From Odontesthes bonariensis (taxonomy: Eukaryota > Chordata > Actinopteri > Atheriniformes > Atherinopsidae), in assembly GCF_027942865.1 (NCBI RefSeq), contig NC_134521.1, forward strand, positions 17,920,449 through 17,984,448: a stretch of 64,000 bases of DNA, in the 5' to 3' direction. Positions 12,330 through 39,485 of the stretch are shown piece after piece (the first letter of the stretch is position 1; each line of letters starts with the position of its first letter). Made by a program: the position numbers and the translations under genes. The notes under the pieces were generated by a model. It was not told the origin of the DNA. It did not search any database and saw only the letters and a program-made list of their open reading frames with translations.

Positions 12330-14765
12330 TGTGATATTTAAAGCAGAGATGAGCTACTGTGTATAAAGTTATTGAAAATTATGAACAGATATAAAATGTA
12401 AAAATAAAAGGTGTATCTCATGCAGCCAGTGTAGTTACATGATCCCACACTGATTTGGAGTCAATTGATCCCGTTATCTAGAAGCTATTGAGCTAAAATG
12501 CTAATATTTACATTTAAAAATTAATAAAAATTATGAACAGAACTAAATTGTAAAAATAAAAGGTGTATCTCATTCAGCCAGTGTAGTTACATGATCCCAA
12601 GCTGATTTGGAGTCAATTGATCACATGACCTGGAAGTTCCATCCATCCATCCATTATCTGCCGCTTGTCCGGGGATCGGGTCGCGGGGGCAGCAGCTTAA
12701 GCAGAGAAACCCAGACGTCCCTGTCCCCGGCCACTTCCTCCAGCTCTTCTGGGGGGACCCCGAGGTGTTCCCAGGCCAGCCGAGAAACATAGTCTCTCCA
12801 ACGTGTCCTGGGTCTTCCCCGGGGCCTCCTCCCAGTGGGACGGGCCCGGAACACTTCACCAGAGAGGCGTCCAGGAGGCATCTTAACCAGATGCCCGAGC
12901 CACCTCATCTGACTCCTTTCGATGCGGAGGAGCAGCGGTTCTACTCCGAGCCCCTCCCGGATGACCGAGCTTCTCACCCTATCTCTAAGGGAGAGCCCAG
13001 ACACCCTGCGGAGGAAACTCATTTTGGCCGCTTGTATTCGCGACCTCGTTCTTTCGATCACTACCTACAGCTCGTGACCATAGGTGAGGGTACGAAAATA
13101 GATTGACCGGTAAATCGAGAGCTTCGCCTTCTGGCTCAGCTCCTTCTTCACCACGACGGGCCGGTGCAGAGCCCGCATCACTGCAGACGCCGCACCGATC
13201 CGTCTGTCAATCTCCTGTTCCATTCGTCCCTCACTCGTGAACAAGACCCCAAGATACTTGAACTCCTTCACTTGGGGAAGGATCTCATTCCCGACCCGGA
13301 GAGAGCATTCCACCCTTTTCGGCTGAGGACCATGGTCTCAGATTTGGAGGTGCTGATTCTCATCCCAGCCGCTTCACACTCAGCTGGGAACCGCTCCAGT
13401 GAGAGCTGAAGGTCACGGCCCGACGACGCCAACAGAACCGCATCGTCCGCAAAAAGCAGAGACCCGATTCTGAGGTCGCCAAAACGGACCCCCTCAACGC
13501 CCTGGCTGCGCCTAGAAATTCTGTCCATAAAAATTATGAACCAAATCGGTGACAAAGGGCAGCCCTGACGGAGTCCAACCCTCACAGGAAACATGTCCGA
13601 CTTACTGCCGGCAATGCGGACCAAACTCTGACACCGGTCATACAGAGACCGAACAGCCCATATCAAGGAGTCCGGCACTCCATACTCCCGGAGCACCCCC
13701 CACAAGAGTCCCCGAGGGACACGGTCGAACGCCTTCTCCAAGTCCACAAAACACATGTAGACCGGTTGGGCGAACTCCCATGCTCCCTCCAGGATCCTGC
13801 CGAGGGTATAGAGCTGGTCCACTGTTCCACGGCCAGGACGAAAACCATAGTGCACCTCCTGAATCCGAGATTCGACTATCCGGCAGATCCTCCTCTCCAG
13901 TACCCCCGAAAAGACCTTACCAGGGAGGCTGAGGAGTGTGATCCCCCTATAGTTGGAACACACCCTCCGGTCCCCCTTTTTAAAGAGGGGGACCACCACC
14001 CCGATCTGCCAGTCCAGAGGCACTGCCCCCGATGTCCACGCGATGCTGCAGAGGTGTGTCAACCAAGACAGCCCTACAACATCCAGAGCCTTGCCACCGA
14101 GGAGTTTTTTAACCACCTCGGCAACCTCAGCCCCAGAAATGGGAGGCCCCACGTCCGAGCTCCCCAACTCTGCTACCTCATCGGAAGGCGTGTCGGTAGG
14201 ATTGAGGAGGCCCTCGAAGTATTCCCCCCACCGACTCACGACGTCCCTGGAAGTTATTGAGCAAAAATGCTAATATTTACATATAAATATTAATATAAAT
14301 TATGAACAGAACTAAATTGGAAAAATAAAAGGTGTATCTCGTGCAGCCAGTGTAGTTACATGATCCCACACTGATTTGGAGTCAATTAATCGCATGACCT
14401 GGAAGCTATTGAGCAAAAATGCTAATATTTACATGTAAAAATTAATAAAAATTATGAACAGATGTAAAATGTAAAAACAAGAAGTGTATCTCATGCAGCC
14501 AGTGTAGTTACATGATTCCATACTGATTTGGAGACAATTGATCATATGACCTGGAAGCTATTGAGCAAAAATGCTAATATTTACATTTAAATATTAATAA
14601 AAATATGAACAGATCTAAAATATAAAAATAAAAGGTGTACCTCATGCAGCCAGTGTAGTTACATGATCCCAAGCTGATTTGGAGTCAATTGATCACATGA
14701 CCTGGAAGCTATTGAGCTAAAATGCCAATATTTACAAATAAAAATGAATGAAAAGTATGAACAGA
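12330..14765 (-). repeat. ~150-bp tandem repeat, left arm
   Basis: Five to six copies of a ~150-bp unit, recognisable by GGAAGCTATTGAGC, CATGCAGCCAGTGTAG and GGAGTCAATTGATC. Units restart near 12,479, 14,248, 14,400, 14,552 and 14,704. The array is split at 12,639 by the LINE insertion. The inverted counterpart lies at about 38,960-39,485. No coding content. Confidence 0.85.
12639..14245 (-). mobile_element. RTE/Rex3-type LINE inserted in the tandem repeat
   Basis: 5'-truncated non-LTR element of 1,607 bp with the 10-bp target duplication CCTGGAAGTT (12629-12638 and 14246-14255). The minus strand gives a reverse transcriptase domain (about 14,239-13,268) with FKKGDRR, NYRGITLL, GFRPGRGT, VDLEKAFDRVPR, GLRQGCPLSP and FADDAVLL, then FKYLGVLFTSEG and the C-terminal PRGRPRTRWRDYVS region (13,061-12,654). 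The 3' end is a GGAT-type simple repeat next to the duplication. Two frame breaks near 13,060-13,310 make it inactive. The RTE/Rex3 label rests on the RT motifs and the GATG tail. Confidence 0.85.
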
Positions 14766-15309
14766 TGTAAAATGTAAAAACGTAGAAATAAAATAAATAA
14801 AATAAAAAGGGAAACCCTCGGAAAATAACATAGCAAAGGACACACGAACAAAACATGATAAAAAACAGGCAAAAAACACAAAACTTCGGCTTTCTCTGAG
14901 CTGCTTTAAAGGGATAGTTCGCCTCTTTTGACATGAAGCTGTATGACATCCCATACTAGCAATATCATGCATGAACTAGGTTAAGAAATTAACCCATGTT
15001 CTCTGAATCACGAGTGAGGTATCTGACAATGGGACATGCCCCCTGCGCTTCTCCCCAGAAGCAATTTTCCACTACGCCAGTCCTGACTGGCAGACAGACG
15101 TGTCGCACTGATCTTGGAGGAGTGACTTCCTCCTCCTTATAAGACCGGAACATCATGTGGCTCACGAACTTTGTGAAACACAGAAATACACGAAGCATTT
15201 CATCTTCCAGATACTGCAGCAGCATCATTGATGACAGTGTTCCTGGTCTTGACAGTGGCATTGTTTTCTTTTCGACTTTCTTCGTTGTAGAACACTGTAA
15301 AATAATAAT
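14766..15309 (-). repeat. Palindrome arm segment between tandem repeat and L2
   Basis: Near-identical, in inverted order, to 38,403-38,959. It contains a sequence beginning AAAGGGATAGTTCGCCTC, which I recall as the end of a common fish DNA transposon, next to a TTAA; only one end is present. A 90-codon open frame (15,261-14,989) is kept in both arms, but I see no family and no evidence that it is a gene. Confidence 0.6.
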
Positions 15310-15857
15310 TTTATCATCAAATCAAATCAAATTTATTTATATAGCAATAATTCAAAGTGCTTTACATAAAATAAAAGCATTGCAGCAGGGAGTGGAAGAA
15401 GCATTAGAATACATAAAAGAATCCTGGATTTAAAAATGTCTACATTTGGTGAAAGTTTCATCTCCACTGACAGTTTGTTCCCTTGTTTGCAGCATAACTG
15501 CTAAATGCTGCTTCTCCATGTTTAGTCTGGACTCTGGACTGGACCAGCTGGCCTGAGTCCTTGGATCTAAGAGCTCTGCTGGGTTTATATTCTCTGAACA
15601 TATCACAGATGTATTTTGGGCCTAAACCGTTCTGGGATTTGTAAACCATCAGCAGGCTTTTAAAATCTATTCTGTGACTGACTGGAAGCCAGTGTAAAGT
15701 TTTTAAAACTGGTGTGATGTGTTCAGATCTCTTAGTCCGGGTTAAAACTCCAGCGGCAGCGTTCTGGATGAGCTGCAGATGTTTAATGCCAGGGCTGGAC
15801 TGGCATCTGAAAAGGGCCCGGGCACTTTGATCACTGAGGGCCCAGCGCGCGCGTGCA

Positions 15858-15914: not shown

Positions 15915-15997
15915 CACACACACTTGTGTCTAATTATCATTAATCCTCCATTTAATCCTTGCAAGGTGTACATGTTTTGTTACATAGAAGATATTCT

Positions 15998-16711
15998 TAC
16001 GGTGGCCGACACGTGCAAACGCGCTGCAAACGGCGAAACAAATCCAACAGTAAAATGCTGCAAGAGAAAAATGCGGCAATAACAAAAACGACCGGAGCAC
16101 ACGCGCTGCAAACCCCGAAACACATGCAAGACAGAAACGCTGCAAACTTTAAAACACATGCAAGATAAAAATGCTGCAAACTTCAAAACACATGCAAGAC
16201 AAAAACGCTGCAAACTCCAAAACACATGCAAGATAAAAATGCTGCAAACTTCAAAACACATGCAAGACGCTGCAAACTCCAAAACACATGCAAGATAAAA
16301 ATGCTGCAAACTTCAAAACACATGCAAGACCAAAACGCTGCAGACTTCAAAACACAACGGAAGTTCGCCAGGCCACTGGGGGGTCTCGACCTGTGGGATA
16401 GGGGATATATGGGAGCGCTACCATATGAACCAGAGTGATGTGAACGAAAGAGAAGAAAGTCAGAAGGTAAGTTGTCCTCATGTCTTTTTTAAACACTTGG
16501 CCGTAATCTTTTACCTTATTATAGAAGAGCAGCGGAGTTATGTCGCTAATGTTAGCGTGCTTTCATTTAATTTAATGTTAGCTTTCGCTCGGGGACATCG
16601 TCTCCTCATATTGGATACATGGTAAGAGAGATGACAAACCGAGTGCACGGAAAGTACAGAGAGTAAAGGAGATGGCAAGGGAAGAGAAAAGAGAACAAAT
16701 TTGAAGAGTAA
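15998..16711 (+). repeat. Left long terminal inverted repeat with subterminal 34-bp array
   Basis: About 714 bp, near-identical by eye to the complement of 23,409-24,098. Order from the tip: TACGGTGGCC end, GCGCTGCAAAC motifs, seven or eight ~34-bp tandem units (16,098-16,360) with alternating AAGACAAAAACG and AAGATAAAAATG endings, promoter region, first exon (16,425-16,466) and the start of intron 1. Confidence 0.9.
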
Positions 16712-18819
16712 GAGTAAGATTAAATAAAAAGCACAGAAAGGTGACAAAGTGCCCTCTCTCTTTATTTAGTAATGATCAATATGCAATTTTGAAATTAAAT
16801 TGACTGATTGGATTCATCATAGCATATCATTGTCTATTTTTCCAGGCTGCCATGTTTTGCCCTTTCTGCAGCCAAGATCTGGGGACAGTTCACGTGTTCT
16901 GTCACTCATGTGGCAAAAATGTACAGTTCTTGGCACAAGCTGAAGACAATGGTGAGTATACTTGATGTACTCTTGGTTTAACATGCCACACTTTTCAAGA
17001 TGCCCAAACATGGCTTTTTCCATGATAAACCAGTATTTTTTAGTGTGATAATGTAATGTAACAACCCAAGATTAGGGATCTACACTATATAGACAAACTC
17101 TATGTAACTGAGCTGTAACAACCCATATCTGATTTGACTCAGCCTGTCCTTTTTGAAAATGTATTCTCCTTTTCTCCCGTTGTTTGTCAGGTTCAACATT
17201 GGACAGCCCCACAGAGGAGGATCTGATTAAAAAGTACTTCCATGATGGCTACAGCAACAAAGAAATTTTGGATTTCCTGGCAACAATTCACAATGTTAAA
17301 TTGAGCCTTCGCTCTCTGAATAGTAAATTAAAAAGTTTTTCACTGTTCAGGCAGAAAAATTACACTCCTCTTGTTACGGTACGTGCTGCCATCAAAGAAG
17401 AGCTAAAGGGACCAGGTCGGCATTATGGCTACCGTTTGATGTGGCTCACACTGCGCCAGAAGTACTATCTGACAGTGAGAAGGGATCATGTTATGACTTT
17501 GTTGAACGAGCTTGATCCGTCTGGAGTAGAATTGCGTGCAAGACGGAGATTTGTAAGAAGAGTTTACAGCTCCCATGGACCAAACCATGTCTGGCACATT
17601 GATGGTTATGACAAATTAAAGCCCTATGGCTTGGCAATTAGTGGCTGTATAGATGGCTACTCTCGCAAAGTACTGTGGTTGGTGTGTCAAGCAAGCAACA
17701 ACAATCCAGGAGTGATTGCTCAAAACTATCTACGATGTGTCTCAGAATGTGGGATCATACCAATGCGGCTTCGCACGGACTGTGGCACTGAGAATGGCAC
17801 AATGGTGGCAATCCATTGTGCTTTAAGATCATCACACACTGATGATTTTGCTGGGGCAGCCAGTCATATGTATGGCTCCTCAACAGCAAACCAACGAATA
17901 GAAAGTTGGTGGTCATACTTCCGAAAACAGAGGTTTGGTCATCAACAATTATTTTTATTTTTGTGCTCCTAGTTAATGTTATTGCAGTTACTGAAATGTA
18001 AATTTTCAATCGCATTACATGTAAATGTAAACCTAAAATGAATGACAGCTCTAATTCTAGTCTGTTGCAGGTCTCAGTTCTGGATGGACCTGATGAATGA
18101 TCTGAAAGAGAGACATCTCTTCAGTGGGAGTCATGAGCACACATGTCTAGTGCGGTTTGTGTTCATGGGTGTGCTACAAAGGCACCTTGACGAATGCAGG
18201 GAAAGATGGAACACACATACTATCAGACCTGTTAAGCAGTCTCGTTGTCCGTCTGGTAAACCAGATGTCATGTACTACCTGCCTCACAGGTTTGTTTTTA
18301 TGTGATATGTCTTTAAAAAATATATATATTTGTCAAATTAACGTGTAGTTACTGCCTGTAGTTAAATTATTTTGCCTGTTGAGTAGCTTTCACAATATTT
18401 TTCCCCAGCAATGAATATTCAGTCATGTATTCATCTCATGCTACCCATTACTCTAATAATCTCTACTAAGCAGTGTGACAGTTGTTTATTTTCACATTTC
18501 AAGTACAATTCAGTAATAAAACTGGCTATAACATAAAACAATACAAGTTGCCAGTTGACTGAAAAAAACTAAATATATATATGAACTGACGTACAGTGCA
18601 TATGTAACCCCCAGGTTCGGTGGAAATGACTGTGGGTTCACATTCTCACAGGAGGAATTTGGCCAGTTTAGAACAGAGACAACCTGCAGTCCATGTGGCG
18701 ATGACCATCTCCAGGCACACTTTGAGGACTTACAGAGACGGAGTGGTCTGATGCAGCCATTAACATGGGAGTCCTGTGTGGAAAACTACATAAGACTGAA
18801 GAACATGGCTGATATGTAA
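16425..18819 (+). CDS. Zinc-ribbon rve/DDE integrase (putative transposase)
   Basis: Five exons: 16425-16466, 16846-16951, 17191-17932, 18071-18289, 18615-18819; 1,314 nt, 437 aa, all introns GT-AG and in phase. Exon 1 (14 residues, from MNQSDV) lies in the inverted repeat. Exon 2 encodes a zinc ribbon, C19-x2-C22-x10-C33-x2-C36 followed by GKNVQFL. Exon 3 has a helical N-terminal region (EEDLIKKYFHDGYSNKEI) and an rve integrase core with W-H-I-D187, the second-strand IDGYSRKV, R-T-D246-C-G-T-E-N-G and N-Q-R-I-E287; spacing D246 to E287 is 40 residues. The C-terminal exons hold several Cys/His residues (CSPCGDDH) of unknown role. The gene probably cuts and joins element ends in the nucleus (inference from fold). 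Stop at 18,817. It converges on the HECT gene, 152 bp apart. Confidence 0.9.
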
Positions 18820-18971
18820 TGTGAGTGCAACATTCAGTCTTTGTATCAAACAACCAAAACAAAGTACCACAGCTTTCATGGAACAACTTTCAAAATGGAC
18901 TCTGCAACTGTAAACATTATAGGTCAACAGCCTAATTTTTCTTTTCTGATACCATACTTGAAATTCCAATT

Positions 18972-21209
18972 TCAATGGAGTCCAAAACCAGGGGAGTTTT
19001 GTATCCCAAAGTCCATGTCTGTTTGAAACTCATCATATGTCTTGGACATTGGTATTTTGATTGTGTTCGCACAGGTGCTGCTGACCGGAAACCGAGATGT
19101 TGACTGAAAAATCAGTTTGGGTTGTGGCTGAATTCCAGAGGGAGGCAGTGTGTTTAATCCTGTGGCAAACATCAGGATGTCCGGGAGAGAGAGCCCTGTT
19201 TGTTGTTCTGAAAAAAGGAGAAGTATTGAGTTAAGTTAAACATTACAATACGACTGATATAAACAGAAAATGGTAAAAATAATAAATGTTCTAATAAAAA
19301 TAAACCTTCTGTGCCAAGGAGATAGTCTCTCCAGAATCCTAGTACTCTGGTTTCTTCATGCCGTCTTGTGCTGCCCTTTTCACTGAGCTGAACCTCAAAG
19401 ATTTCCTGTAGTGTTGCAGATGTCAGCTTCTCTGCACTTGCGCACATGAAGGGCCTGAATACAGATGCATGCTGCTCCAAAGCGTACATGACACCCAGTG
19501 TCGAAAGCCCATCCTTGAATCTAGAAAACAATTAGAGCAATCATCACCTCAATGATGCTGGCAATGGAAGCATTTTAAAGGAGCAGTTCCATCCACCATA
19601 CATGAACATGATTTGGCAGTACATTTAATCTTCTAATCTTTTACACCAAGTGATCTTGCATATTCACCCAGAGTCTGAAACTGACTCGCGCGCCAAATGG
19701 TCACTGAAAGTTTTGACAGCTACACAAATTTAAAATTTTTTGTTGACTTGAGTGAAGTAATTCTACCAGCCTCTTGCTCATTTGGCTGATGACTACTGTT
19801 ACATTCTGACCCTGTATTCATCTCTTTGACTAATATATGACTTGAAAAAAAAAATTAATGAACATCTTTAACTTTGTTCAAATTAGGGAGACATACCTTT
19901 GTATTGAGAAATAGTTGCGGTAAATTTTGTACCACCGCATAAAATCTTTTATCATCTTCTTTTTGTCATCCACAATAACAGGGTAATGAAAGCAACCAGC
20001 AATCAGCAAGATGTTGGAATGTCTTTCAACTGCTGAATGTAGTTCATCTAATGTAGCTGCATTGGATATCTAGGGCAGAGAACAATGAGCGTAAACGGAA
20101 AGCAATATGCTGACACACTCCCATGTGAGGCAATTTATTTAAAAAAAAAAAAAACGACATACCTACTGAATATCAGATTTTTTGTATTCTGCCATTTAGA
20201 ATTGTCTTTTGTGAAGACATTTTTTATAGTAACAAAACATGTTCGAAAAAAGTTGATATGGGCATAATTAAATATTAGACATTTAAAAAAAAAAAAATAC
20301 TTTACTTGACTGAAGTAGTTGTTGTTAATAATACCAACCTACCTCAAGCAGGGAAGCTCTCATGGTGTCATCAGTGATATCTTCAATCTTGGCTTCAATG
20401 TCAGTGGTTGTTCCTGTGAGGAACTGGTAAAACGTCTCTGCCAAGAAGCGAGGACCTGGACCACCATGAACGATGGAAGTAGCAATCATCTTCCCAGCAA
20501 GGAAGTATTCATCATCTTTCGCAGCTGTAGATTTTTTTTGTCAAATTAGAACTACATTTACATCAGTTGCCGCATTCTCATGAAGAAGATGCTGAAACTC
20601 GAAATAAGGTCATTACCTTTACTGTCAAGTGTGATAAATTTCCTGTCCTCTGGTCCATCAAAGATTCTGCGTGTTCTTAGGCAGTTCATAAGAAGGGTCA
20701 GGAACTCACGCTTGGGACCACCATTGTCAAGTCCATCCTCAGCTTGTCCCTCATCGTCAGTGAACCTCACTAATATTTCATTGGATGGGTCAAATGAAGC
20801 ACGTTTGAAGCCTCGGACCGCTCCGTCCCAAACATTGCCTCTATTGATATTGAACCTGCTGTGAGACGTTTGTGTAGTCTTTGCATAGAGCTCTGAAATA
20901 ATGTCTGCAGCAGTCTTATGGTCTGTGCTGTAAAAGAAAATGTGGTGTATTATTATTTCAAAGAATAAAGGCACAAATAAGATTTAGAAAAATACTAATT
21001 AGTAATTACTACCTTTCCTCTGCACAGTGCTCCATATGTTCCTCTGGCTCTGAGTCACTGTCAACTATGATAGGTGCATACACATTTGTGTAGTTGCTGT
21101 ATTGAGAGGACAGTTGAGTAAATATTTTCAAATTTATATCTAATGAATGATCTTTAAAAAGAATATTGGGTTTAGAACAGATAATACCAGTATGTTTGGC
21201 ATATGTATG

Positions 21210-21245
<36 letters not shown>

Positions 21246-23698
21246 AAAATATATTTAAAAAAAAAGGTATGAATATCCCAAAATACTTGTGGGATTTTTT
21301 TTCCTTGGTTTGTAAGTAGTGACTTCCATTTAGAAATGTAAAAATGTAAAAAGCAAATCTGTAAAGGTTGTAACCATCAACACAGCTTACCTATAGTAGT
21401 TTTTGTTGTGGTCCTGGGTGGATTTGAGAAGTTCCTGGACTTTGGTTTGTCCTCCATCCTAATTTAACCGAAGAAATTACTGCAGTTAATGTAATGACAG
21501 TGCCACTGGCTTAGTAACTATAATAGTACACATTACATTTTGAGTGATTAGCTTGGAGAATTCATGAAAATATGTTCACACATTCAACATTTAAGTAGAT
21601 GAATTCAAGTCTTACTTGATCAGAGCCTGGTTGTGTGTGTCTGAAAGGTCTGGAAATAAAAAAAAACTAAATAATTAAGTAGCTGCACTGTGCGTTGCAC
21701 TGTCTGAGCAACAAAATATGAAGTGGACAATGTTTTGTTTGTCGTTTTGTATTTTACTCATTCAGAATGTTCTCCATTCTTGGACTGCTAGCATTATCTG
21801 GACCATCCCACAACTGCATACAACATAGAAATGACAGATTTCATCAAACGAAAATATCAATTCACTTCACTTAACGTGTAATGCCATACAGATGATAACT
21901 GACCAAGGTGTCAGAAAGTGGACTGTCTCCAGATGGCAACCGAACATGGACAACACTGTCATCGTCACTTGAAGAATGTCCACTGTAACCTAAATGCAAT
22001 AATTATCTTGATTGTTACGGGTATGAAGTTGAATTGCATTAATCTCCCCAGTTTTACCTGTGAGTAAAGGTTATTTTGAATCCTTGAATCTTCAATATCT
22101 ATCAACCATAAATACTTAATTAAAATTCACTACATAAATTTGGTGAAATGGTAGAATCATATGGTATCCCCTTTTGCTTTCAAACTTTGTATTGTGGCAC
22201 AATAAACCCACATTGTAGTAAGAAAAAGACTGTATTGGAAATACAAGCCTAAAGTGGGCCTAAAGGGCTTTCTGATATTTATACTGATGACACACAAGTT
22301 AAACCTGGAAGTTAAAAGAATCATGACTGGAATTTATCTTGGTCTGAGAATCATATGTAGGTGTAAAAATGTGATATTTAAATCTAACATATAACAAAGT
22401 TGAGCTTAAAACAAGAGTGAAGATGTGTCAGAAGCACTTACAGCTGTTTGCAAAGTCCCTAACAGTGCAAATGTAAAAAGTAATTCTTTGGTAGGACTTT
22501 CCAATCTCCTCTTTGTACTTCTGCACTGTGAAAGGGGTGTCAGATCCCGGGATGTTTATAACTTTTTTAGCATCAGGATACAACAAAACATAAGCACAAT
22601 CTTCCATATCCTGGTTGAAATCTTTCTGCTTTTTTACAGCAGCAGCCAGCAGTTGTTCAGCTGACCAATGAGGCTGAATATCAATGGGAAGAGACTTCCC
22701 TCTCACAGGCTTAAGAGAGCACCCGTGCATCTTCATAACGCCAACATTAATCTGATGAAAGATAAGATAATGAAATTAATAAAATAAATTTAATTGATAG
22801 AATCTGTCATTTACAGTTCATGAGTCTGCGTTGGTCATTGTGTGTGGGCAATGGCATACCTTCACTATTTTCTGTTTCTGTTCCTTCCCTGCTCTGTTCT
22901 TTGAAAAGAATGTCTTTCTTTCCCTCTCTTTTATTGCCCTAAATTTCAAAAAGGACTCAACACCTGAGCTTCCTGAAAGGTCAAAAATACAGGAATTGCA
23001 CATTAATTACTCTTAATTAATTACTTTATTATTACCCCCACTATTCTCATATTTAATGTATTTCTAACATTTAATGTACTGAGTATTGCTGAGATATACT
23101 GACTACAAGAACACGATTTTCAGTTTACCTGCACTAGTGCCTGACTGAGCATCAGGAACTGCACTGGTGGTGGGCCTTTCCTCAGGGGGTTTGTTTGCCT
23201 TATTACAAATTGTACTAAGAAATTTAACATTTTTGCCACACTGAAAACAAAAGTCTGCAAAATCTCTCACGGTTTCTCCACAAAATGGACAGTACATCTG
23301 TGAGGGGAAAGTGGAGATTATTATTATTAGTTCAATGCTCTCCACATCTCCTCATCACCTCCACATTTTGCCCTAATGTCCCGTCTCTGCTTCCTGGAAT
23401 TGCCTCTGTTACTCTTCTTCAAATTTGTTCTCTTTTCTCTTCCCTTGCCATCTCCTTTACTCTCTGTACTTTCCGTGCACTCGGTTTGTCATCTCTCTTA
23501 CCATGTATCCAATATGAGGAGACGATGTCCCCGAGCGAAAGCTAACATTAAATTAAATGAAAGCACGCAAACATTAGCGACATAACTCCGCTGCTCTTCT
23601 ATAATAAGGTAAAAGATTACGGCCAAGTGTTTAAAAAAGACATGAGGACAACTTACCTTCTGACTTTCTTCTCTTTCGTTCACATCACTCTGGTTCAT
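18972..23698 (-). CDS. Zinc-ribbon HECT-domain E3 ubiquitin ligase encoded by the transposon
   Basis: Fourteen exons: 23657-23698, 23129-23297, 22860-22972, 22442-22751, 21904-21989, 21758-21813, 21616-21649, 21391-21458, 21013-21096, 20617-20927, 20343-20524, 19897-20069, 19306-19520, 18972-19207; 2,079 nt, 692 aa, every junction in phase. Exon 1 matches that of the integrase gene. Exon 2 encodes C17-x2-C20-x10-C31-x2-C34 plus GKNVKFL, the sister of the integrase zinc ribbon. A basic linker, a globular region (VLLYPD, TFYICTVRDF) and an acidic Ser-rich region follow. From about residue 350 to the end is a HECT domain: VRFTDDEGQAEDGLDNGG, VHGGPGPRF, then a C-lobe with LPPSG, PKLIF, catalytic-type S-T-C660, PMSKTYDEF and the terminal GFGLH. 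Fish genomes hold many similar proteins annotated as G2E3-like. Substrate unknown. Confidence 0.9.
21212..21241. repeat. (AT)n microsatellite
   Basis: Short AT dinucleotide run, preceded by ATGT repeats, in an intron of the HECT gene. Confidence 0.85.
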
Positions 23699-24098
23699 AT
23701 GGTAGCGCTCCCATTTATCCCCTATCCCACAGGTCGAGACCCCCCAGTGGCCTGGCGAACTTCCGTTGTGTTTTGAAGTTTGCAGCGTTTTTGTCTTGCA
23801 TGTGTTTTAAAGTCTGCAGCGTTTTTGTCTTGCATGTGTTTTAAAGTTTGCAGAATTTTTATCTTGCGTGTGTTTTGAAGTTTGCAGCGTTTTTGTCTTG
23901 CATGTGTTTTGAAGTTTGCAGCATTTTTTATCTTGCATGTGTTTTGAAGTTTGCAGCGTTTCTGTCTTGCATGTGTTTTGGGGTTTGCAGCGCGTGTGTT
24001 CCGGTCGTTTTTGTTATTGCCGCATTTTTCTCTTGCAGCATTTTACTGTTGGAATTGTTTCGCCGTTTGCAGCGCGTTTGCACGTGTCGGCCACCGTA
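23409..24098 (-). repeat. Right long terminal inverted repeat with subterminal 34-bp array
   Basis: Mirror of the left repeat, about 690 bp; the length difference comes mainly from fewer ~34-bp units (about six, 23,770-23,995). It holds the HECT gene promoter and first exon. The sequence corresponding to GGATATATGG upstream of the left start codon is GGATAAATGG here, a possible TATA-like position in both. Confidence 0.9.
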
Positions 24099-24821
24099 TA
24101 TTCTGGACTAAAGATGGGGAAAAAAAGCTGCTGTGCACCCTCATGTTCCCTTCATCCTGCTTGTGAAGTTCTGAGTATCTTTGTTTTTGAGGATAAGAGA
24201 TAGAGAGAGGAGGATAACTAACTTTATTTTCCAGATGATGAGCCCTGGCCAGTGAATCTCATTGTGAAAAAAGTATTTTTAGCATTTCCCTCAGAAAAAC
24301 CTGAAAATGGGTCCCACAGACCCAAGCCAGGGATAAGCAAAGCAATATTTCACCAACACACACAACACTGTATAGAAAAGGAGCACCAGCACCACACACA
24401 CACTGTTGTATGTTCTAAGTCTTACTGAATCAAATTAAACATGTAGTAATAATTTCCTGGGTTCAATTATTTTATTTATTGCTCAAAATTGCTCCAGTCC
24501 ACAGATACTGTCAGTGAGCTTACTGAATGGAATGTTAACCCCCGCCCCCCAGGCATAAACTGTAATGCAGCTTGAGACTGATCAAAAGAGCCTATACGAT
24601 AGTGCTTATGTCTGTGTATTTTTTCTCTCGGACACGTCATTTTTTTCACCACAGCAAAACCAAAAAAATAAATCAAGTGGGTATTTTTGACTGATTTGAG
24701 AGCGTGGGGACGACAACTTCAGTTTTAGTTTTAGTTTCAGGCAACACATGGGAAAAACGCCGAAGCGGTGAATAGTTAATCTAGGTAGTTCTAGAGGGCA
24801 CCAGCAGAATTTAAACACATT

Positions 24822-28137: not shown

Positions 28138-28364
28138 CATTTTAATCATCAATACGAACTGAAGGCTTCAAATTGCAGAGAAACTTGAAATTGCAAACTT
28201 AAATTTGGCAAGCTGTTTTACGTACGTGTACATATTAAACCGCAACATTATTGACACACAGGTAGAGAAGAAGCAGAGAGACTGTTTAGCCAATCAGAAT
28301 ACAATGCAAATCCGTGATGCAGCGAGACCGTGAAAGGTGAACTGCGTTATAGCGAGCCTTCACT
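28138..28364 (+). mobile_element. Tigger-like MITE fragment, left arm
   Basis: Truncated relative of the element at 29,640-30,373: it shares AATCATC..TACGAACTGAAGGC, the CGTGTACATATTAAACCGCAA block and the TIR end CACTG at a TA. Much of the interior is deleted. Directly joins the truncated L2. Confidence 0.75.
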
Positions 28365-28445
28365 GTAATTCCTTTTTACCAGTTCACTTTCCTACCATGG
28401 GCTGTGTTTCCCTCTTGACAAACATCCACAATGCACAGTTGACTT

Positions 28446-28462
28446 TGCCTAAACCCGGGATT

Positions 28463-28512
<50 letters not shown>

Positions 28513-28518
28513 TTCGGC
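28446..28518 (-). tRNA. tRNA-Phe (GAA), possibly degenerate
   Basis: 73-nt tRNA fold with D-arm AGCTCAGTTGGGAGAGC, anticodon loop CTGAAGA (anticodon GAA) and T-arm GGTTCAATCCC. A and B boxes are intact and there is no intron. Acceptor pair 4-69 is G-A instead of G-C, a single mismatch. Mirror partner is at 31,841-31,913. Whether it is transcribed or charged cannot be told from sequence. Confidence 0.8.
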
Positions 28519-28689
28519 TACAAAGGGCTACAATGGCAGCTTTCATTTGGAAAGTAAAACTAGCAACTCGCTCCGTGGAGCGTAGACGACAAAGCTATGG
28601 AGCCAGATAAAGGCCACAAAAACGCAATAATTGATTGTTGTAGCTGAGGAAGAAGCCTCGTGTGTTTCCATTAATGCAGGTTTTTTGTT

Positions 28690-31583: not shown

Positions 31584-31840
31584 AAAAAGTACTGTGCATT
31601 GTGGATGTTTGTCAAGAGGGAAACACAGCCCTCCCATGTTAGGAAAGTGAACTGGTAAAAAGGAATTATCTCAAAAAACCTGGATTAATGAAAACACACA
31701 AGGCTTCTTCCTCAGCTACAACAGTCAATTATTGCATTTTTGTGGCCTTTATCTGGCTCCACAGCTTTGTCGTCTACACTCCACGGAGCGAGCTTCCGGT
31801 TTTACTTACCAAATGAAAGCTGCCATTGTAGCCCTTTGTA

Positions 31841-31846
31841 GCCAAA

Positions 31847-31896
<50 letters not shown>

Positions 31897-31913
31897 AATC
31901 CCGGGTTTCGGCA
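31841..31913 (+). tRNA. tRNA-Phe (GAA), possibly degenerate
   Basis: 73-nt tRNA fold with the same D-arm, GAA anticodon loop and T-arm as the copy at 28,446-28,518, ending TTTCGGCA. Acceptor position 4 is A, opposite C69, so one pair is lost. This is the same pair that is lost in the mirror copy, but through the other strand of the stem. Confidence 0.8.
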
Positions 31914-31991
31914 AAGACTACTATGAATTGCGGATGTTTGTCAAGAGGGAAACACAGCCCATGGTAGGAAAGTGAACTGGTAAAGGAATTA

Positions 31992-32353
31992 CAGTGAACC
32001 CTCGCTATAACGCAGTTCACCTTTCACGGTGTTGCTGCTTCATGGATTTGCATTCTGATTGGCTAAACAGTCTCTCTGCTTCTTCTGTGTGTCCATAAAG
32101 TGGTGGTTTAATATGTACACGTATGTAAAACAGTTTGCAATTTCAAGTTTCTCTCTCGAAAAAACACACCTGCACCACAGGCTTTAGAAGAAAAAAACTT
32201 TACAGAGTCAGGATGCAGCGGCTCAGTCAGAAGAGCAGTGAAATACACGTGAGTCACTATTTGTCCTACTGTACTTTGTATTTTTTCTCATTTTTTATTT
32301 TCTCCCGTTCTGGTGCTGATCTCCGCAATTTGAAGCCTTCAGTTCGTATTGAT
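31992..32353 (-). mobile_element. Tigger-like MITE fragment, right arm
   Basis: Begins with TIR CAGTGAACCCTCGC at a TA and runs to TACGAACTG..ATTGATGATTAAAA, the mirror of 28,138-28,364 but longer inside (contains the TCAGTCAGAAGAGCAGTG region of the full element). Confidence 0.75.
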
Positions 32354-32984: not shown

Positions 32985-35900
32985 TTAAATCTGTTCAATG
33001 AGTCTCTCAGGTGGTGTCACGTTTCTTGACGATTTCCTGAGTGTTTGTTCTTGCATGTGAGTAGGTGCCTCAGGTGATGGAGTCTTGAGTGTGTGTTGAG
33101 GTTGTTCAGCAGCCTCAACCCTCTGTTCTACTGTCGCGGGTCCCTTGAGAAGATCTCTGCGATTTCGTCTCAGGAGAGCTCCATCTTCTGTCTGTATGGT
33201 GTATGACCTTGGCTGAACTTCACTTAACACTTTTGCTTTCTGTGCCCATGTGTTTGTTTTGTCTTTAAACCTCACTTGGTCCCCTGCATGCAGTTCAGGT
33301 AGGTTCTTTGTTCCTCTGTCATAATAGAACTTCTGCTTTGCTTTTTGCTGCTCCTTGACCTTCTTCACACTGTCTCCCTCCTTTGTTTTGAGCAGGTCAT
33401 CCTGGATGGGCAGGTTTGATCTCAGGCGTCGTCCCATCAGGAGCTGAGCTGGTGACACACCACACTCAAGTGGAGTTGTGCGATATATCAGCAGGCTCTG
33501 GTAGAAGTCAGTGTCACCGTCTCTTGCCTTACCCATCAGCCTCTTCACCGTTTGGACTGACTTTTCCACCAGCCCGTTAGATTGTGGGTAATGAGGACTT
33601 GATGTTGTGTGAACAAAGTCCCATTCTGCAGCGAACTGTCTGAACCTCATGTTGGAAAATTGTGGTCCGTTGTCTGTGAATACTTCACCTGGCACACCGT
33701 GTCTTGAGAATATGGCTTTCATGGATGTAATAACAGCCTCTGCGGTTGTGGTGTGCAATCTACATACCTCTGGATACAGGGAATAATAGTCTGTGACCAC
33801 AATGTAGTCCTTTCCTCCAGAAACAAAGAGGTCAGCACCAACCTTCTGATAAGGTCGGTCTGGCACAGGGTGTGGCTTAAGTGGCTCTGCAGGATTGCTT
33901 GCTTGATATTTCAGACATATCGAGCAGTTTGACACCTCGTTTGTCACATCCTGATTGATCCGTGGCCAATACATCACCTCACGTGCTCTCTTTTTGCATT
34001 TTTCAATGCCAAGATGCCCTGTATGTATCTTTTTGAGCATGTCTCCTCGCAGATTCTTTGGGATGACTATCTTGCTTCCCTTGTAGATGATACCCTCCAC
34101 CACTGACAGCTCTGCTCTGCAGTTCCAGTACTCTTGAATGACAGGTGAGCAGTCTTGCTTACAGTTGGGCCATCCATCTATGATCGTGTTGCACAGTGTT
34201 TCCAACGTGTCGTCTTTGCTTGTCTCAGTTCTTATGAGCTCCATTTTCCCATCTGCGATAGGCAGTGCACTTGTGATCATGTTCACATATGCTTTTACAT
34301 CATCATCCATTTTGGTGTTCGCCGGCTCTTTCGGGTCAACAGCCCTGGATAAAGTGTCAGCTGTGTACATCAGCTTACCAGGGGTGTACATCACGTTGAG
34401 TGTGTAGCGTTGCAGCCGGATCATCATTCTTTGGATTCTCAGCGGACAGTCATTGAGTGGCTTTTGGAACAATGCAATCAGAGGTTTATGGTCAGTTTCA
34501 ACACTGATTGCTTGCCCTGACACAAACTGGTGGAATCTTTCACAGGCATATGTTATGCTGAGCAGTTCTTTTTCAATTTGTGCATATCTTGTCTCTGCAT
34601 CCGTCATGGATCGCGAAGCATATGCAACAGGTTGCCAGTCATCATACTTCTGCATAAGAACAGCTCCAAGCCCACTCTGTGATGCATCTGATGAGATCTT
34701 AATAGGTCTCACTGGATCATAAAACTTCAGAACTGGTTCCTCTGTAAGCAGTTTTTTCATGTCACACCATGATTTCTCATGTTCATGATTCCACTCCCAT
34801 TCAATTTTCTTTTCAGTCAGCTGTCTCAGTGGCGCCATCTTTTCAGAGAGATTGGGTATGAATTTTCCCATGTAGTTGATCATGCCATTAAACCTCTGCA
34901 CGTCCTTCTTGCATTGTGGCCTTGGCATGTTTTCAATTGCTGACACTTTTCTAGGATCCGGTCTGATGCCTTCACTGCTCAGGATGTCTCCCACAAATGT
35001 CAGTTCCTTCACACCCAGCTGGCATTTCTCTTTATTCAGCTTCAGGTTTGCTTTTCTGGTTGCCTCAAGAACTTTTCTCAGTCTCATGTCATGGTCAGCT
35101 TTTGTGCTGCCCCACACGATGATGTCATCCATTGATGTGTCGACTCCTTCTAGGTGCTCATAAATCATGTGTATCGTTTTGTGATACACCTCAGGTGCTG
35201 AGGCAATGCCGAATGGCAGTCGCCGGAATCTATATCTGCCAAATGGACTGTTGAATGTGCACAGTTTTGAGCTTTCACTGTCCAGCTTTAGCTGCCAAAA
35301 TCCTGATGATGCATCTAGTTTGCTGAAGTACTTTGCATTTGCAAACTGTGACATTATTTCTTCTCTTGTAGGCAGTTTGAAATGTTCTCTCTTTATTACT
35401 CTGTTCAGATCTCTAGGATCCATGCAAACTCTGGGCTTTCCATTCTTTTTCTCCACAATGACAAGAGAACTCACCCACTCAGTTGGTTCATCAATCTTTT
35501 CAATTACTCCCAGGTTCTCCATCCTGTCCAACTCATCTTTCAGCGGCTTTCGAAGAGCAAATGGCACCTTGCGGCATGGATGAATGACTGGTGGCACACT
35601 TTTATCCACTCTGATTGTGTGTTCTCCAGAAAGGCAGCCAAGACCCTGGAATAGGTCACCATATTCTTTCATCAACTCATCATAGTCCATATCATCAGTT
35701 TCTACAACGAGCACTCTCTTAACTAGGTTCAGTCTCTCACAGGCATTTAAACCTAGTATGGGCTGCACATTCTTTGGCACCACGATGAATGTTAGTGTAT
35801 GCTCTTTGTCCTTGTGTGTCACTTTAACCATGCATTTTCCTTTCACAGGTATTTCTGCTCCAGAGTATCCACTCACTTTCACCTTTGTTGCATGTATTTT

Positions 35901-36872
35901 GGGTCTGGGTCTGATTTTCTTGAAGTCTGCTTCTGATATGACGTTTGCTTGAGCTCCGGTATCCAGCTTAACCTCCAAATGCGTGTCATTCACTTTTAGT
36001 GTCATTATCCAATCCTTTTTTCCCATTTTGTTTTCTATCACAGCATCTACATAGAATTCCTCCATGTCATCTTCATCCACTGTATGGACTTTGCTTTGTC
36101 TTGGGGTTTGATTCTTGCAGCACCGAGCATAATGGTTATTTTTGTTACAGTTGTTGCATAGTTTGCCATATGCCGGACATTTTTTAGGTGGATGCTGCGT
36201 GCCACATCGACCACAAGTCTTTTCTTTTCGGTCTCTGTTAAATGGTGACTTTGATTGTTGTTTAATTTCAGAGGTAGCACTCTTTTTATTGACTCTGTGT
36301 GTGTTCTTATTCACTGCATCTACCTTGCAGCCATCACTGAACAGTTCTTTTGCTTGTACTTTCACAGCCTCAGCCGCTCTGCACAGTTTTAATGCTTTTT
36401 CCAGGTCGAGATTTTCTTCTCTCAGTAGCCTCTCCCTTAGACCATTATCTGGAATCCCGCACACAAGTCTGTCCTTTATCAAAGAGTCTGTCAGTCCTCC
36501 AAATTCACACGTCTTACTTCTGTTCCGCAGCTCTGTTACATACTGTTCAATTGTCTCCCCTGTCTTCTGTGCACATGTGAAGAATCTGTGCCTCTCAAAT
36601 GTCACATTTCTCTTAGGTATACAGTAAGCCTCAAACTGCTCCATTATTTTATTCAGCTTCATTCCGTCTCCATCAGCAAACGTGAAGTTATTATAGACTT
36701 CCAATGCGTCCTCACCCACTACGTGCAAAAACACTGACGCTTGCTTTTTGTCACTTTCCTCGTCCAGTCCAATTGCCGCCAGGTACAAAGCAAAACGTTG
36801 CTTAAACCTTCTCCAATTTTCAGCCACATTCCCAGTCAGCTGAAGGGCGGGTGGTGGGTGTAAGCCGTCCAT
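32985..36872 (-). CDS. gag-pol polyprotein of Ty3/gypsy element
   Basis: Single 1,295-codon frame with no stop. In order: capsid-like gag region (to about residue 215); two zinc knuckles (C220-x2-C-x3-H-x4-C232 and C239-x2-C-x4-H-x3-C251); aspartic protease with LDTGAQ (D304); reverse transcriptase with D520 and the SMDD box (D582, D583); RNase H (D729, E769, D793); integrase zinc-binding H950, H953-equivalent, C983, C986; and integrase core D1014, D1067, E1103. Gag and pol are fused in one frame, so no frameshift is needed. The motif pattern suggests a Mag-like clade (inference). It copies the element through RNA into new genomic sites; it has no role for the host here. Confidence 0.95.
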   Translation of the reverse strand: MDGLHPPPALQLTGNVAENWRRFKQRFALYLAAIGLDEESDKKQASVFLHVVGEDALEVYNNFTFADGDGMKLNKIMEQFEAYCIPKRNVTFERHRFFTCAQKTGETIEQYVTELRNRSKTCEFGGLTDSLIKDRLVCGIPDNGLRERLLREENLDLEKALKLCRAAEAVKVQAKELFSDGCKVDAVNKNTHRVNKKSATSEIKQQSKSPFNRDRKEKTCGRCGTQHPPKKCPAYGKLCNNCNKNNHYARCCKNQTPRQSKVHTVDEDDMEEFYVDAVIENKMGKKDWIMTLKVNDTHLEVKLDTGAQANVISEADFKKIRPRPKIHATKVKVSGYSGAEIPVKGKCMVKVTHKDKEHTLTFIVVPKNVQPILGLNACERLNLVKRVLVVETDDMDYDELMKEYGDLFQGLGCLSGEHTIRVDKSVPPVIHPCRKVPFALRKPLKDELDRMENLGVIEKIDEPTEWVSSLVIVEKKNGKPRVCMDPRDLNRVIKREHFKLPTREEIMSQFANAKYFSKLDASSGFWQLKLDSESSKLCTFNSPFGRYRFRRLPFGIASAPEVYHKTIHMIYEHLEGVDTSMDDIIVWGSTKADHDMRLRKVLEATRKANLKLNKEKCQLGVKELTFVGDILSSEGIRPDPRKVSAIENMPRPQCKKDVQRFNGMINYMGKFIPNLSEKMAPLRQLTEKKIEWEWNHEHEKSWCDMKKLLTEEPVLKFYDPVRPIKISSDASQSGLGAVLMQKYDDWQPVAYASRSMTDAETRYAQIEKELLSITYACERFHQFVSGQAISVETDHKPLIALFQKPLNDCPLRIQRMMIRLQRYTLNVMYTPGKLMYTADTLSRAVDPKEPANTKMDDDVKAYVNMITSALPIADGKMELIRTETSKDDTLETLCNTIIDGWPNCKQDCSPVIQEYWNCRAELSVVEGIIYKGSKIVIPKNLRGDMLKKIHTGHLGIEKCKKRAREVMYWPRINQDVTNEVSNCSICLKYQASNPAEPLKPHPVPDRPYQKVGADLFVSGGKDYIVVTDYYSLYPEVCRLHTTTAEAVITSMKAIFSRHGVPGEVFTDNGPQFSNMRFRQFAAEWDFVHTTSSPHYPQSNGLVEKSVQTVKRLMGKARDGDTDFYQSLLIYRTTPLECGVSPAQLLMGRRLRSNLPIQDDLLKTKEGDSVKKVKEQQKAKQKFYYDRGTKNLPELHAGDQVRFKDKTNTWAQKAKVLSEVQPRSYTIQTEDGALLRRNRRDLLKGPATVEQRVEAAEQPQHTLKTPSPEAPTHMQEQTLRKSSRNVTPPERLIEQI

Positions 36873-37030
36873 GTTGCTGTCGCTAGGTCCTCACGGCGAG
36901 TTAGCAACAAAAAGTTCACTGCTAAGCTGATGCGTCGTTACCGTTAGCTGGGTGGCTTATCGCGCTAGCTTGCCTCGGTAGCTCGTCCTTGTTGTTAATG
37001 TTCACGTCCGTTACCTCTCTTCAAGTCCAT

Positions 37031-37240: not shown

Positions 37241-38402
37241 CTGTAGATCACAAAAACCTGTTGCACAGGCTGGAAAACTGGGTTGGACTTTCTGGAGCGG
37301 TCCTTAACTGGTTCAGGTCCTACTTAGAAGGCCGGAGTTATTTTGTTACAATTGGCAGCTATGAATCTGAGCGAGTGGCCATGACTTGTGGAGTCCCCCA
37401 GGGGTCAATTCTTTGACCTCTTCTGTTTAACTTGTATATGCTCCCTTTGGGTCAGATATTGCAGAACTTTAACATCAATCATCACAGTTATGCAGGCGAT
37501 ACACAACTTTATGTGTCTCTGTCACCGGACGACTGCAGCCCAGCAGACGTACTGTGTCAGTGTCTGGAGGAAGTAAACACCTGGATGAGAGATAATTTTC
37601 TGCAATTAAATGAAGACAAAACTGATATTATTCTGTTTGGTAGCAAAGAGAAGAGGGTCAGCGTTGGTAAATATCTTGAGACTCGGGACCTACAATCACT
37701 GACCAAGTTCGTAACCTCGGAGTGTTGATAGACTCAGATCTGACTTTCAGCAGCCACATCAAAGCTGTCACCAAGGCAGCTTTTTACCATCTCAGAAACA
37801 TCAACAGAATTAAAGGTTTCCTCTCCCAAAAAGACCAGGAGAAACTCATCCATGCATTCATCTCCAGTAGACTCGATTACTGTAATGCTCTTTTAACTGG
37901 ACTTCCCAAAAAGAGCATTAAACATCTGCAGCTCATCCAGAACGCTGCTGCTAGAGTTTTAACCCGGACTAAGAGATCTGAACACATCACACCAGTTTTA
38001 AAATCTTTACACTGGCTTCCAGTCAGTCACAGAATAGATGTTAAAAGCCTGCTGATGGTTTACAAATCCCAGAACGGTTTAGGCCCAAAATACATCTGTG
38101 ATATGTTCAGAGAATATAAACCTAGCAGAGCTCTTAGATCCAAGGACTCAGGCCAGCTGGTCCAGTCCAGAGTCCAGACTAAACATGGAGAAGCAGCATT
38201 TAGCTGTTATGCTGCAAACAAGTGGAACAAACTGCCAGTGGAGATGAAACTTTCACCAAATGTAGACATTTTTAAATCCAGGATTCTTTTATGTATTCTA
38301 ATGCTTCTTCCACTCCCTGTTGCAATGCTTTTATTTTATGTAAAGCACTTTGAATTGTTTGTACATGAAATGTGCTATATAAATAAATTTGATTTGATTT
38401 GA

Positions 38403-38959
38403 TGATAAAATTATTATTTTACAGTGATCTACAACGAAGAAAGTCGAAAAGAAAACAATGCCACTGTCAAGACCAGGAACACTGTCATCAATGATGCTGC
38501 TGCAGTATCTGGAAGATGAAATGCTTCGTGTATTTCTGTGTTTCACAAAGTTCGTGAGCCACATGATGTTCCGGTCTTATAAGGAGGAGGAAGTCACTCC
38601 TCCAAGATCAGTGCGACACGTCTGTCTGCCAGTCAGGACTGGCGTAGTGGAAAATTGCTTCTGGGGAGAAGCGCACGGGGCCTGTCCCATAGTCAGATAC
38701 CTCACTCGTGTTTCAGAGAACCGGGGTTAATTTCTTAACCTATAGTTCATGCACGATATTGCTAGTATGGGATGTCATACAGCTTCATGTCAAAAGAGGC
38801 GAACTATCCCTTTGAAGCAGCTCAGAGAAAGCCGAAGTTTTTGTGTTTTTTGCCTGTTTTTTATCATGTTTTGTCCGTGTGTCCTTTGCTATGTTATTTT
38901 CCGAGGGTTTCCCTTTTTATTTTATTTATTTTATTTCTACGTTTTTACATTTTACATCT
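38403..38959 (+). repeat. Palindrome arm segment between L2 and tandem repeat
   Basis: Inverted copy of 14,766-15,309. Contains the same lone DNA-transposon end near 38,800 and the same 90-codon open frame (38,458-38,730) with a few substitutions. No known domain. Confidence 0.6.
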
Positions 38960-39485
38960 GTTCATAATTTTCATTCATTTTTATTTGTAAATATTAGCAT
39001 TTTTGCTCAATAGCTTCCAGGTCATGTGATCAATTGACTCCAAATCAGCTTGGGATCATGTAACTACACTGGCTGCATGAGATACACCTTTTATTTTTAT
39101 AATTTAGTTCTGTTCATAATTTTTATTAATATTTAAATGTAAATATTAGCATTTTTGCTCAATAGCTTCCAGGTCATGCGATTAATTGACTCCAAATCAG
39201 TGTGGGATCATGTAACTACACTGGCTGCATGAGATACACCTTTTATTTTTACAACTTAGTTCTGTTCATAATTTTTAGTAATTTTTAAATGTAAATATTA
39301 GCATTTTAGCCCAATAGCTTCTAGATAACGTGATCAATTGACTCCAAATCAGTGTGGGATCATGTAACTGCACTGGCTGCATGAGATACACCTTTTATTT
39401 TTACATTTTGTATCTGTTCATAATTTTCAATAACTTTATACACAGTAGCTCATCTCTGCTTTAAATATCACATTTTTTAAATTTT
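38960..39485 (+). repeat. ~150-bp tandem repeat, right arm
   Basis: Just over three inverted copies of the left-arm unit, restarting near 39,006, 39,157 and 39,310 (GCTCAATAGCTTCCAGGTCA). Confidence 0.85.

Follow-up and report, generated by a model that had tools for sequence, protein, structure and literature searches.

A probable IS3EU/GingerRoot transposon of Odontesthes bonariensis that encodes a predicted HECT ubiquitin ligase beside its transposase

We analyzed a 64-kb stretch of contig NC_134521.1 from the fish Odontesthes bonariensis (the whole stretch of 64,000 nucleotides is called the window below), and found at positions 15998–24098 a complete DNA transposon of 8.1 kb that encodes an integrase-type DDE transposase together with a predicted HECT-type E3 ubiquitin ligase. 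Judged by published descriptions, the element very probably belongs to the IS3EU/GingerRoot group and inherits its HECT gene along with the rest; the superfamily itself is known, and what is new is the HECT partner. Evidence from proteins of other fishes (pairs of the two genes on the same contig, similar trees and common N-terminal ribbons) supports the HECT ligase as a recurrent partner of this transposase.

The ends of the element, TACGGTGGCC...GGCCACCGTA (at 15998 and 24098), are directly flanked by exact copies of the hexamer TATTCT, and each terminus consists of a long inverted repeat that contains a tandem array:

15992–15997 (no strand): left 6-bp target-site duplication, TATTCT, from the sequence
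24099–24104 (no strand): right 6-bp target-site duplication, TATTCT, from the sequence
15998–16707 (+): left terminal inverted repeat, beginning TACGGTGGCC, from self-comparison
23416–24098 (-): right terminal inverted repeat, the reverse complement of the left, from self-comparison
16104–16356 (+): left-repeat tandem array, unit 34 bp, 7.6 copies, candidate sites of protein binding
23767–23992 (-): right-repeat tandem array, unit 34 bp, 6.6 copies

The repeats align in two main blocks, each 98% identical (15998–16171 with 23925–24098, and 16270–16707 with 23416–23853), between which lies part of the 34-bp array, with its unequal copy number on the left and right. When the first 30 bases of the end were searched for with up to three mismatches, the two ends were the only matches in the window, compared with none in 100 shuffles, and no further copy of the element was found in the 64-kb window, where its DNA also matched nothing elsewhere. 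Six protein matches fell outside the element in the window, all of them from one chimeric protein, P0220. Because the inverted repeats are near-identical and the genes are open, the element, which appears intact, was probably inserted recently.

Both genes read inward from the repeats and converge tail to tail, the transposase stop ending at 18819 and the HECT stop lying at 18972 on the reverse strand:

16425–18819 (+): transposase gene, 5 exons, 437 amino acids (aa), from exon reconstruction, Pfam and alignment
16425–16466, 16846–16951, 17191–17932, 18071–18289, 18615–18819 (+): transposase exons
16846–16951 (+): transposase exon 2, with N-terminal zinc-ribbon pattern CPFC..CHSC, from sequence pattern
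18972–23698 (-): HECT E3 ligase gene, 14 exons, 692 aa, from exon reconstruction and Pfam, with the fold from a relative
23698–23657, 23297–23129, 22972–22860, 22751–22442, 21989–21904, 21813–21758, 21649–21616 (-): HECT exons 1–7
21458–21391, 21096–21013, 20927–20617, 20524–20343, 20069–19897, 19520–19306, 19207–18972 (-): HECT exons 8–14
23129–23297 (-): HECT exon 2, with N-terminal zinc-ribbon pattern CPFC..CFQC, from sequence pattern
18972–19207 (-): last HECT exon, with catalytic Cys660 (STCANTIKIP) and C-terminal GFGLH, Phe at -4
16425–16466 (+): first exon in the left repeat, MNQSDVNEREESQK, with GT donor, joining the transposase gene
23657–23698 (-): the same first exon in the right repeat, joining the HECT gene

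Exons were picked by eye from the open frames and then checked by alignment to the fish proteins P0003, P0002 and P0121, in which the window genes displayed no frame break; the 19 exons join in phase, and all 17 introns are of the GT..AG type. The first exon comprises 42 bases including a start codon, is identical for the two genes and occurs once per inverted repeat. Because this exon and its GT donor sit inside the inverted repeat, both proteins start with MNQSDVNEREESQK. The sequence makes it likely that the 42-base exon serves as the real start of both genes; the second exon of each has an in-frame ATG of its own, and either ATG could be the real start, giving lengths of 421 aa (transposase) and 678 aa (HECT protein) when the first exon is left out. 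The preliminary description of this DNA had claimed an exact TATTCT duplication, inverted repeats of about 0.7 kb, two spliced genes of 437 and 692 aa whose 19 exons join in phase, and conserved catalytic residues, and had read the whole as one transposon. Direct reading outside both ends, self-comparison and reconstruction of the genes bear this out, with one repeat pair and one duplication enclosing both genes.

The transposase matched Pfam rva_4 (PF24764, E 6.1e-32) and retains the rve triad, D187, D246 and E287, with 40 residues from the second D to the E; its integrase-type DDE core is also backed by the fold of a relative, P0004. An HHCC motif upstream of the core was absent from the window transposase and from all 120 homologs by one regular expression, many of these homologs being without their N-terminus, and the transposase profile gave no match to PDB sequences up to E 1.

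By fold and residues, the 692-aa protein is a predicted HECT E3 ligase, since Pfam, alignment and the fold of its relative P0121 agree on the HECT domain, the catalytic cysteine and the Phe at -4. It is laid out as a zinc ribbon, a conserved domain of about 105 residues, an acidic linker and the HECT domain. Its 58 aligned relatives are 25–67% identical to P0121, and the catalytic cysteine is kept in 56 of them. For the middle domain (approximately residues 108–212 of P0121), the best PDB sequence match was a chain called DHT03 (E 0.19), and one of ten members weakly matched a ubiquitin-like model (E 0.034), two other models being about equally weak; fold searches with the HECT protein were dominated by the HECT domain. 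The order of its predicted strands and helices only suggests a ubiquitin-like fold. Weak matches to the integrase-core model rve_2 in Pfam occurred in 7 of the 58 relatives (best E 0.0082), perhaps by chance.

In the window, a zinc-ribbon pattern (CxxC..CxxC) lies in the second exon of each gene, inward of the inverted repeat. When we compared these ribbons across the 11 taxa for which both protein lists contained named ribbons, near-identical transposase and HECT ribbons were found in three, whereas none of 1189 between-taxon comparisons reached 30 of 32 positions. In Archocentrus, the first 40 residues of the transposase P0026 recur unchanged at the start of the HECT protein P0151, and the two are unrelated thereafter, while the ribbons match at 31/32 positions in Oryzias melastigma and at 30/32 in bichirs (two genera). 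In these three taxa, the ribbon exon would lie inside the inverted repeat and be kept identical with it. The N-terminus of the Boleophthalmus transposase P0001 matched the window repeats at 23.5 bits, below the best of 50 shuffles (25.0), and we make no claim that it derives from a similar repeat.

We next consider the pairing of the two genes in other genomes. Protein searches listed 120 matches per gene, of which 83 for the transposase and 79 for HECT came with a named species and a contig size, and a contig was counted as the same when species and contig size were equal. Among the matches listed, seven contigs carry both genes. They include an Archocentrus pair with adjacent locus numbers (LOC115776738/739), a Triplophysa rosa pair on an 80.7-kb contig, and pairs on larger contigs from Dissostichus mawsoni and Leuciscus (40–44 Mb), Acanthochromis (41.9 Mb) and Poeciliopsis (19.2 Mb). 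Since close linkage was not evident for Dissostichus mawsoni and Leuciscus, these were excluded from the distance and tree comparisons, while Acanthochromis and Poeciliopsis were retained on account of locus numbers only 5 and 14 apart. The preliminary description had regarded similar fish genes as unlinked, which is thus not true of all of them, and its suggestion that the HECT ligase is a standard partner gains support from the contig pairs, the trees and the ribbons.

Transposase and HECT distances correlated (Mantel r 0.76, 89/40320 permutations) over eight pairs. Besides the window, these comprise five pairs on one contig each and two candidate pairs picked for their matching ribbons and not by linkage, one of which joins Polypterus with Erpetoichthys; picking by ribbon may favor agreement. 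In both protein trees, the window groups with Acanthochromis, and Archocentrus groups with Brachyhypopomus and the bichirs, the order inside this trio differing between the trees. The members of the trio are P0031/P0151 (Archocentrus), P0071/P0170 (Brachyhypopomus), P0043 (Polypterus) and P0147 (Erpetoichthys). A grouping of bichir, cichlid and knifefish presumably conflicts with the host phylogeny and therefore points to old paralogous lineages or to possible horizontal transfer between hosts.

Nearly all listed matches with a named species come from fish. A coral protein (P0238, Montipora, 487 aa) combines an imperfect ribbon with the middle domain and the beginning of a HECT domain; P0223 and P0243 have the ribbon and a Pfam HECT domain, with the middle domain present in P0223. 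Four pattern scans of viral contigs matched 7, 4, 56 and 30 stretches, and one scan of prokaryote genomes, for the transposase only, matched 40; no relative was confirmed in either set. A predicted protein of Polymixia lowei, P0240, fuses transposase domains to the ribbon and middle domain of the HECT gene, as either an annotation artefact or a real fusion; we take its Pfam accessions to denote DDE-superfamily and CENP-B-type transposase domains.

We propose that the inverted repeats may act as promoters for both inward genes, and that they would supply the same leader to both proteins and, in some elements, the same ribbon. A common leader and ribbon would dock the ligase where the transposase docks, whether at the subterminal 34-bp repeats or on the transposase itself. 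Once docked, the ligase would ubiquitinate the bound protein, most likely for turnover or disassembly of the transposase-DNA complex; alternatively, its target may be a host repressor, which would be removed. We rate action of the ligase at the transposition complex as slightly short of an even chance. More tentative is a wider scheme in which the inverted repeat is an exon donor, such that an enclosed gene would gain the transposase promoter, a start codon and, in some elements, the ribbon. A captured HECT ligase would in this way have become a docking, resident regulator, with ubiquitin controlling the transposition complex or its silencing, in an E3-ligase-controlled lineage that fishes, and perhaps also corals, would share and whose genes would widely be listed under a wrong name, as host G2E3-like genes.

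Several observations weigh against this proposal and against the pairing behind it. Ligase activity, substrate, binding by the ribbon and promoter function of the repeats are all inferred. Zinc-ribbon Pfam matches of both window proteins fall below the cut-off, and the two window ribbons agree at 14 of 32 positions, which does not exceed their agreement with ribbons of other elements. Ribbons are at background (10–15 of 32) in eight of the 11 taxa, where the compared proteins need not share one element, and the Archocentrus transposase P0026 is a different locus from the linked P0031, whose model starts 15 residues later and has the same ribbon sequence from there on. The two genes would appear to travel as a unit on the basis of proteins and of contigs matched by size; contig sharing was counted without a chance expectation, the Mantel permutation ignores host relatedness, and O. 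melastigma stands at different places in the transposase and HECT trees. Because 999 proteins were returned for the transposase and 123 for HECT (the HECT search scored only 7991 candidates), transposases without a HECT partner may be common. In addition, the available excerpts on rust and Zymoseptoria IS3EU elements describe other partners (PMC12730594, PMC10853768).

The ligase may instead work away from the transposition complex, in counter-defence, by targeting a silencing or repair protein of the host for degradation, in the way proposed for transposon-encoded TET/JBP enzymes against methylation in fungi. The further enzymes reported in excerpts on other IS3EU lineages (TET/JBP, alpha-kinase; PMC12730594) speak for this explanation, as do the acidic linker and the conserved domain (~108–212 of P0121), which could house a substrate site. 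That transposase and ligase bear near-identical ribbons in some elements points rather to a common docking site, and no host target is known; we hold counter-defence as a tentative possibility.

We think it unlikely that the element merely picked up the HECT gene as a passenger that plays no part in transposition. Two points favor a passenger: HECT genes exist as a family in hosts, and the cargo of fungal IS3EU elements is a different one, according to excerpts of PMC12730594 and PMC10853768. Against it, the catalytic cysteine persists in 56/58 HECT relatives despite their divergence (25–67% identity to P0121), the two protein trees largely agree, and the ribbon-domain-HECT layout recurs in the coral protein and other relatives, which together argue for long selection on the gene.

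We consider it very improbable that the element represents a new superfamily, or Ginger1, Ginger2 or Polinton, instead of IS3EU. An integrase-type core is common to these groups, and IS3EU was compared by description, not by a Repbase protein; however, the 6-bp duplication, the TA..TA ends and the missing HHCC agree with published descriptions of IS3EU/GingerRoot and disagree with those of Ginger1 and Ginger2. Polintons carry genes for a protein-primed DNA polymerase and capsid-type proteins, and our Pfam scan of the element covered its two spliced proteins. By the definitions excerpted from PMC10045372, a 6-bp duplication is also of the Polinton type, Ginger1 is expected to have an HHCC domain and a 4-bp duplication (here no HHCC and 6 bp), and Ginger2 a duplication of 4–5 bp (here 6 bp). 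Lastly, the window is rich in other repeats, but the idea that one element came to lie next to another, or next to a host gene, by chance or nesting, with the outer ends belonging to only one of the two, is largely refuted by the enclosure of both genes within one inverted-repeat pair and one duplication, by the in-phase first exon that each repeat provides to one gene, and by the recurrence of the pairing in fish proteins.

Elsewhere in the window, inverted repeats of ~0.5 kb (28195–28687 and 31672–32150, 90% identical) each contain a tRNA-Phe gene, with short tandem repeats between them, and the piece that they enclose presumably resembles a Copia polyprotein. An open frame of 1301 aa at 32988–36890 (-) resembles what we take to be an LTR-retrotransposon polyprotein. 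A 1.5-kb inverted repeat copy (14297–15789 and 37915–39426, 95%), which ends ~0.2 kb before the transposon, presumably resembles the end of a non-LTR retrotransposon. Exon-like fragments at ~40.1–42.9, 47.7–48.6, 50.2–50.7 and 58.6–59.7 kb, which we take to resemble matrix-metalloproteinase exons, include pairs of ~80% identity, perhaps from tandem gene duplication.

An apparently intact element of this kind permits a direct test of ubiquitin control of transposition, and its inverted repeats are able to give two unlike enzymes one N-terminus. With a ligase beside its transposase, the element may be able to influence protein turnover at the sites of its own transposition.

Among known systems, the closest are IS3EU elements, which Repbase has carried since 2013 and which form one lineage with GingerRoot. 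They have TA..TA ends, usually 6-bp duplications and a DDE transposase without HHCC (PMC10045372, in excerpt). Our element agrees in all of these (its duplication being read from one copy), and its termini, TACGG..CCGTA, fit both TA..TA and the TAYGG..CCRTA of rust families. Since the testable features match the published descriptions, a new superfamily is unlikely, and the distinct lineage outside known superfamilies put forward in the preliminary description is not upheld. Unlike our element, the excerpted portions of PMC10045372 make no mention of HECT or ubiquitin. Rust TET+ IS3EU elements, as excerpted from PMC12730594, share with ours the TAYGG..CCRTA ends, repeats longer than 30 bp, a 6-bp duplication and, oriented opposite to the transposase, a gene for a second enzyme; there, however, the partner is an alpha-kinase, with TET/JBP between the two genes, and no HECT ligase is described. 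Styx of Zymoseptoria is likewise ~8 kb, derived from IS3EU and equipped with additional genes, but it has four open reading frames (transposase, GATA, CCHC and DUF3577 domains) and 36-bp repeats, and its authors infer an ancestral IS3EU that encoded two proteins (PMC10853768, in excerpt). Because of the rust alpha-kinase and this two-protein ancestor, a second enzyme gene in IS3EU is not new in itself. A HECT ligase in an IS3EU element was not found in our literature search, whose reach did not extend to Repbase and Dfam, where an entry may exist; within that reach, no paper describes the two-gene element, in line with the earlier suggestion that it may be undescribed.

The TransibSU / RAG1-RAG2 transposon also has two genes, and vertebrate RAG1 itself has RING ubiquitin-ligase activity; TransibSU differs from our element in its Transib transposase, 5-bp duplication (given in a figure legend) and head-to-head genes, with neither RING nor HECT in the excerpt (PMC4411706). 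By analogy, RAG1 is a precedent for a link between transposase and ubiquitin, not a relative.

Of the 120 listed HECT matches (P0121–P0240), 104 are named, and 65 of these bear the name G2/M phase-specific E3 ubiquitin-protein ligase(-like). Such G2E3-like fish proteins share the HECT domain with the window protein. G2E3 has N-terminal fingers of the PHD/RING type, whereas the transposon-encoded window protein has a zinc ribbon and the conserved middle domain, without G2E3-type N-terminal fingers: no PHD or RING was found in it among Pfam matches up to E 1, and one of the 58 aligned relatives gave a weak RING-type match (E 0.085). Given their kinship with the HECT gene of this transposon, many fish G2E3-like genes may in fact belong to transposons and carry a wrong label, with consequences for counts of gene families. 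A copy-number study in Cottus reported, in the part excerpted, an unclassified candidate repeat element that matches G2E3 (PMC5638112), and a transposon of the kind described here could explain it.
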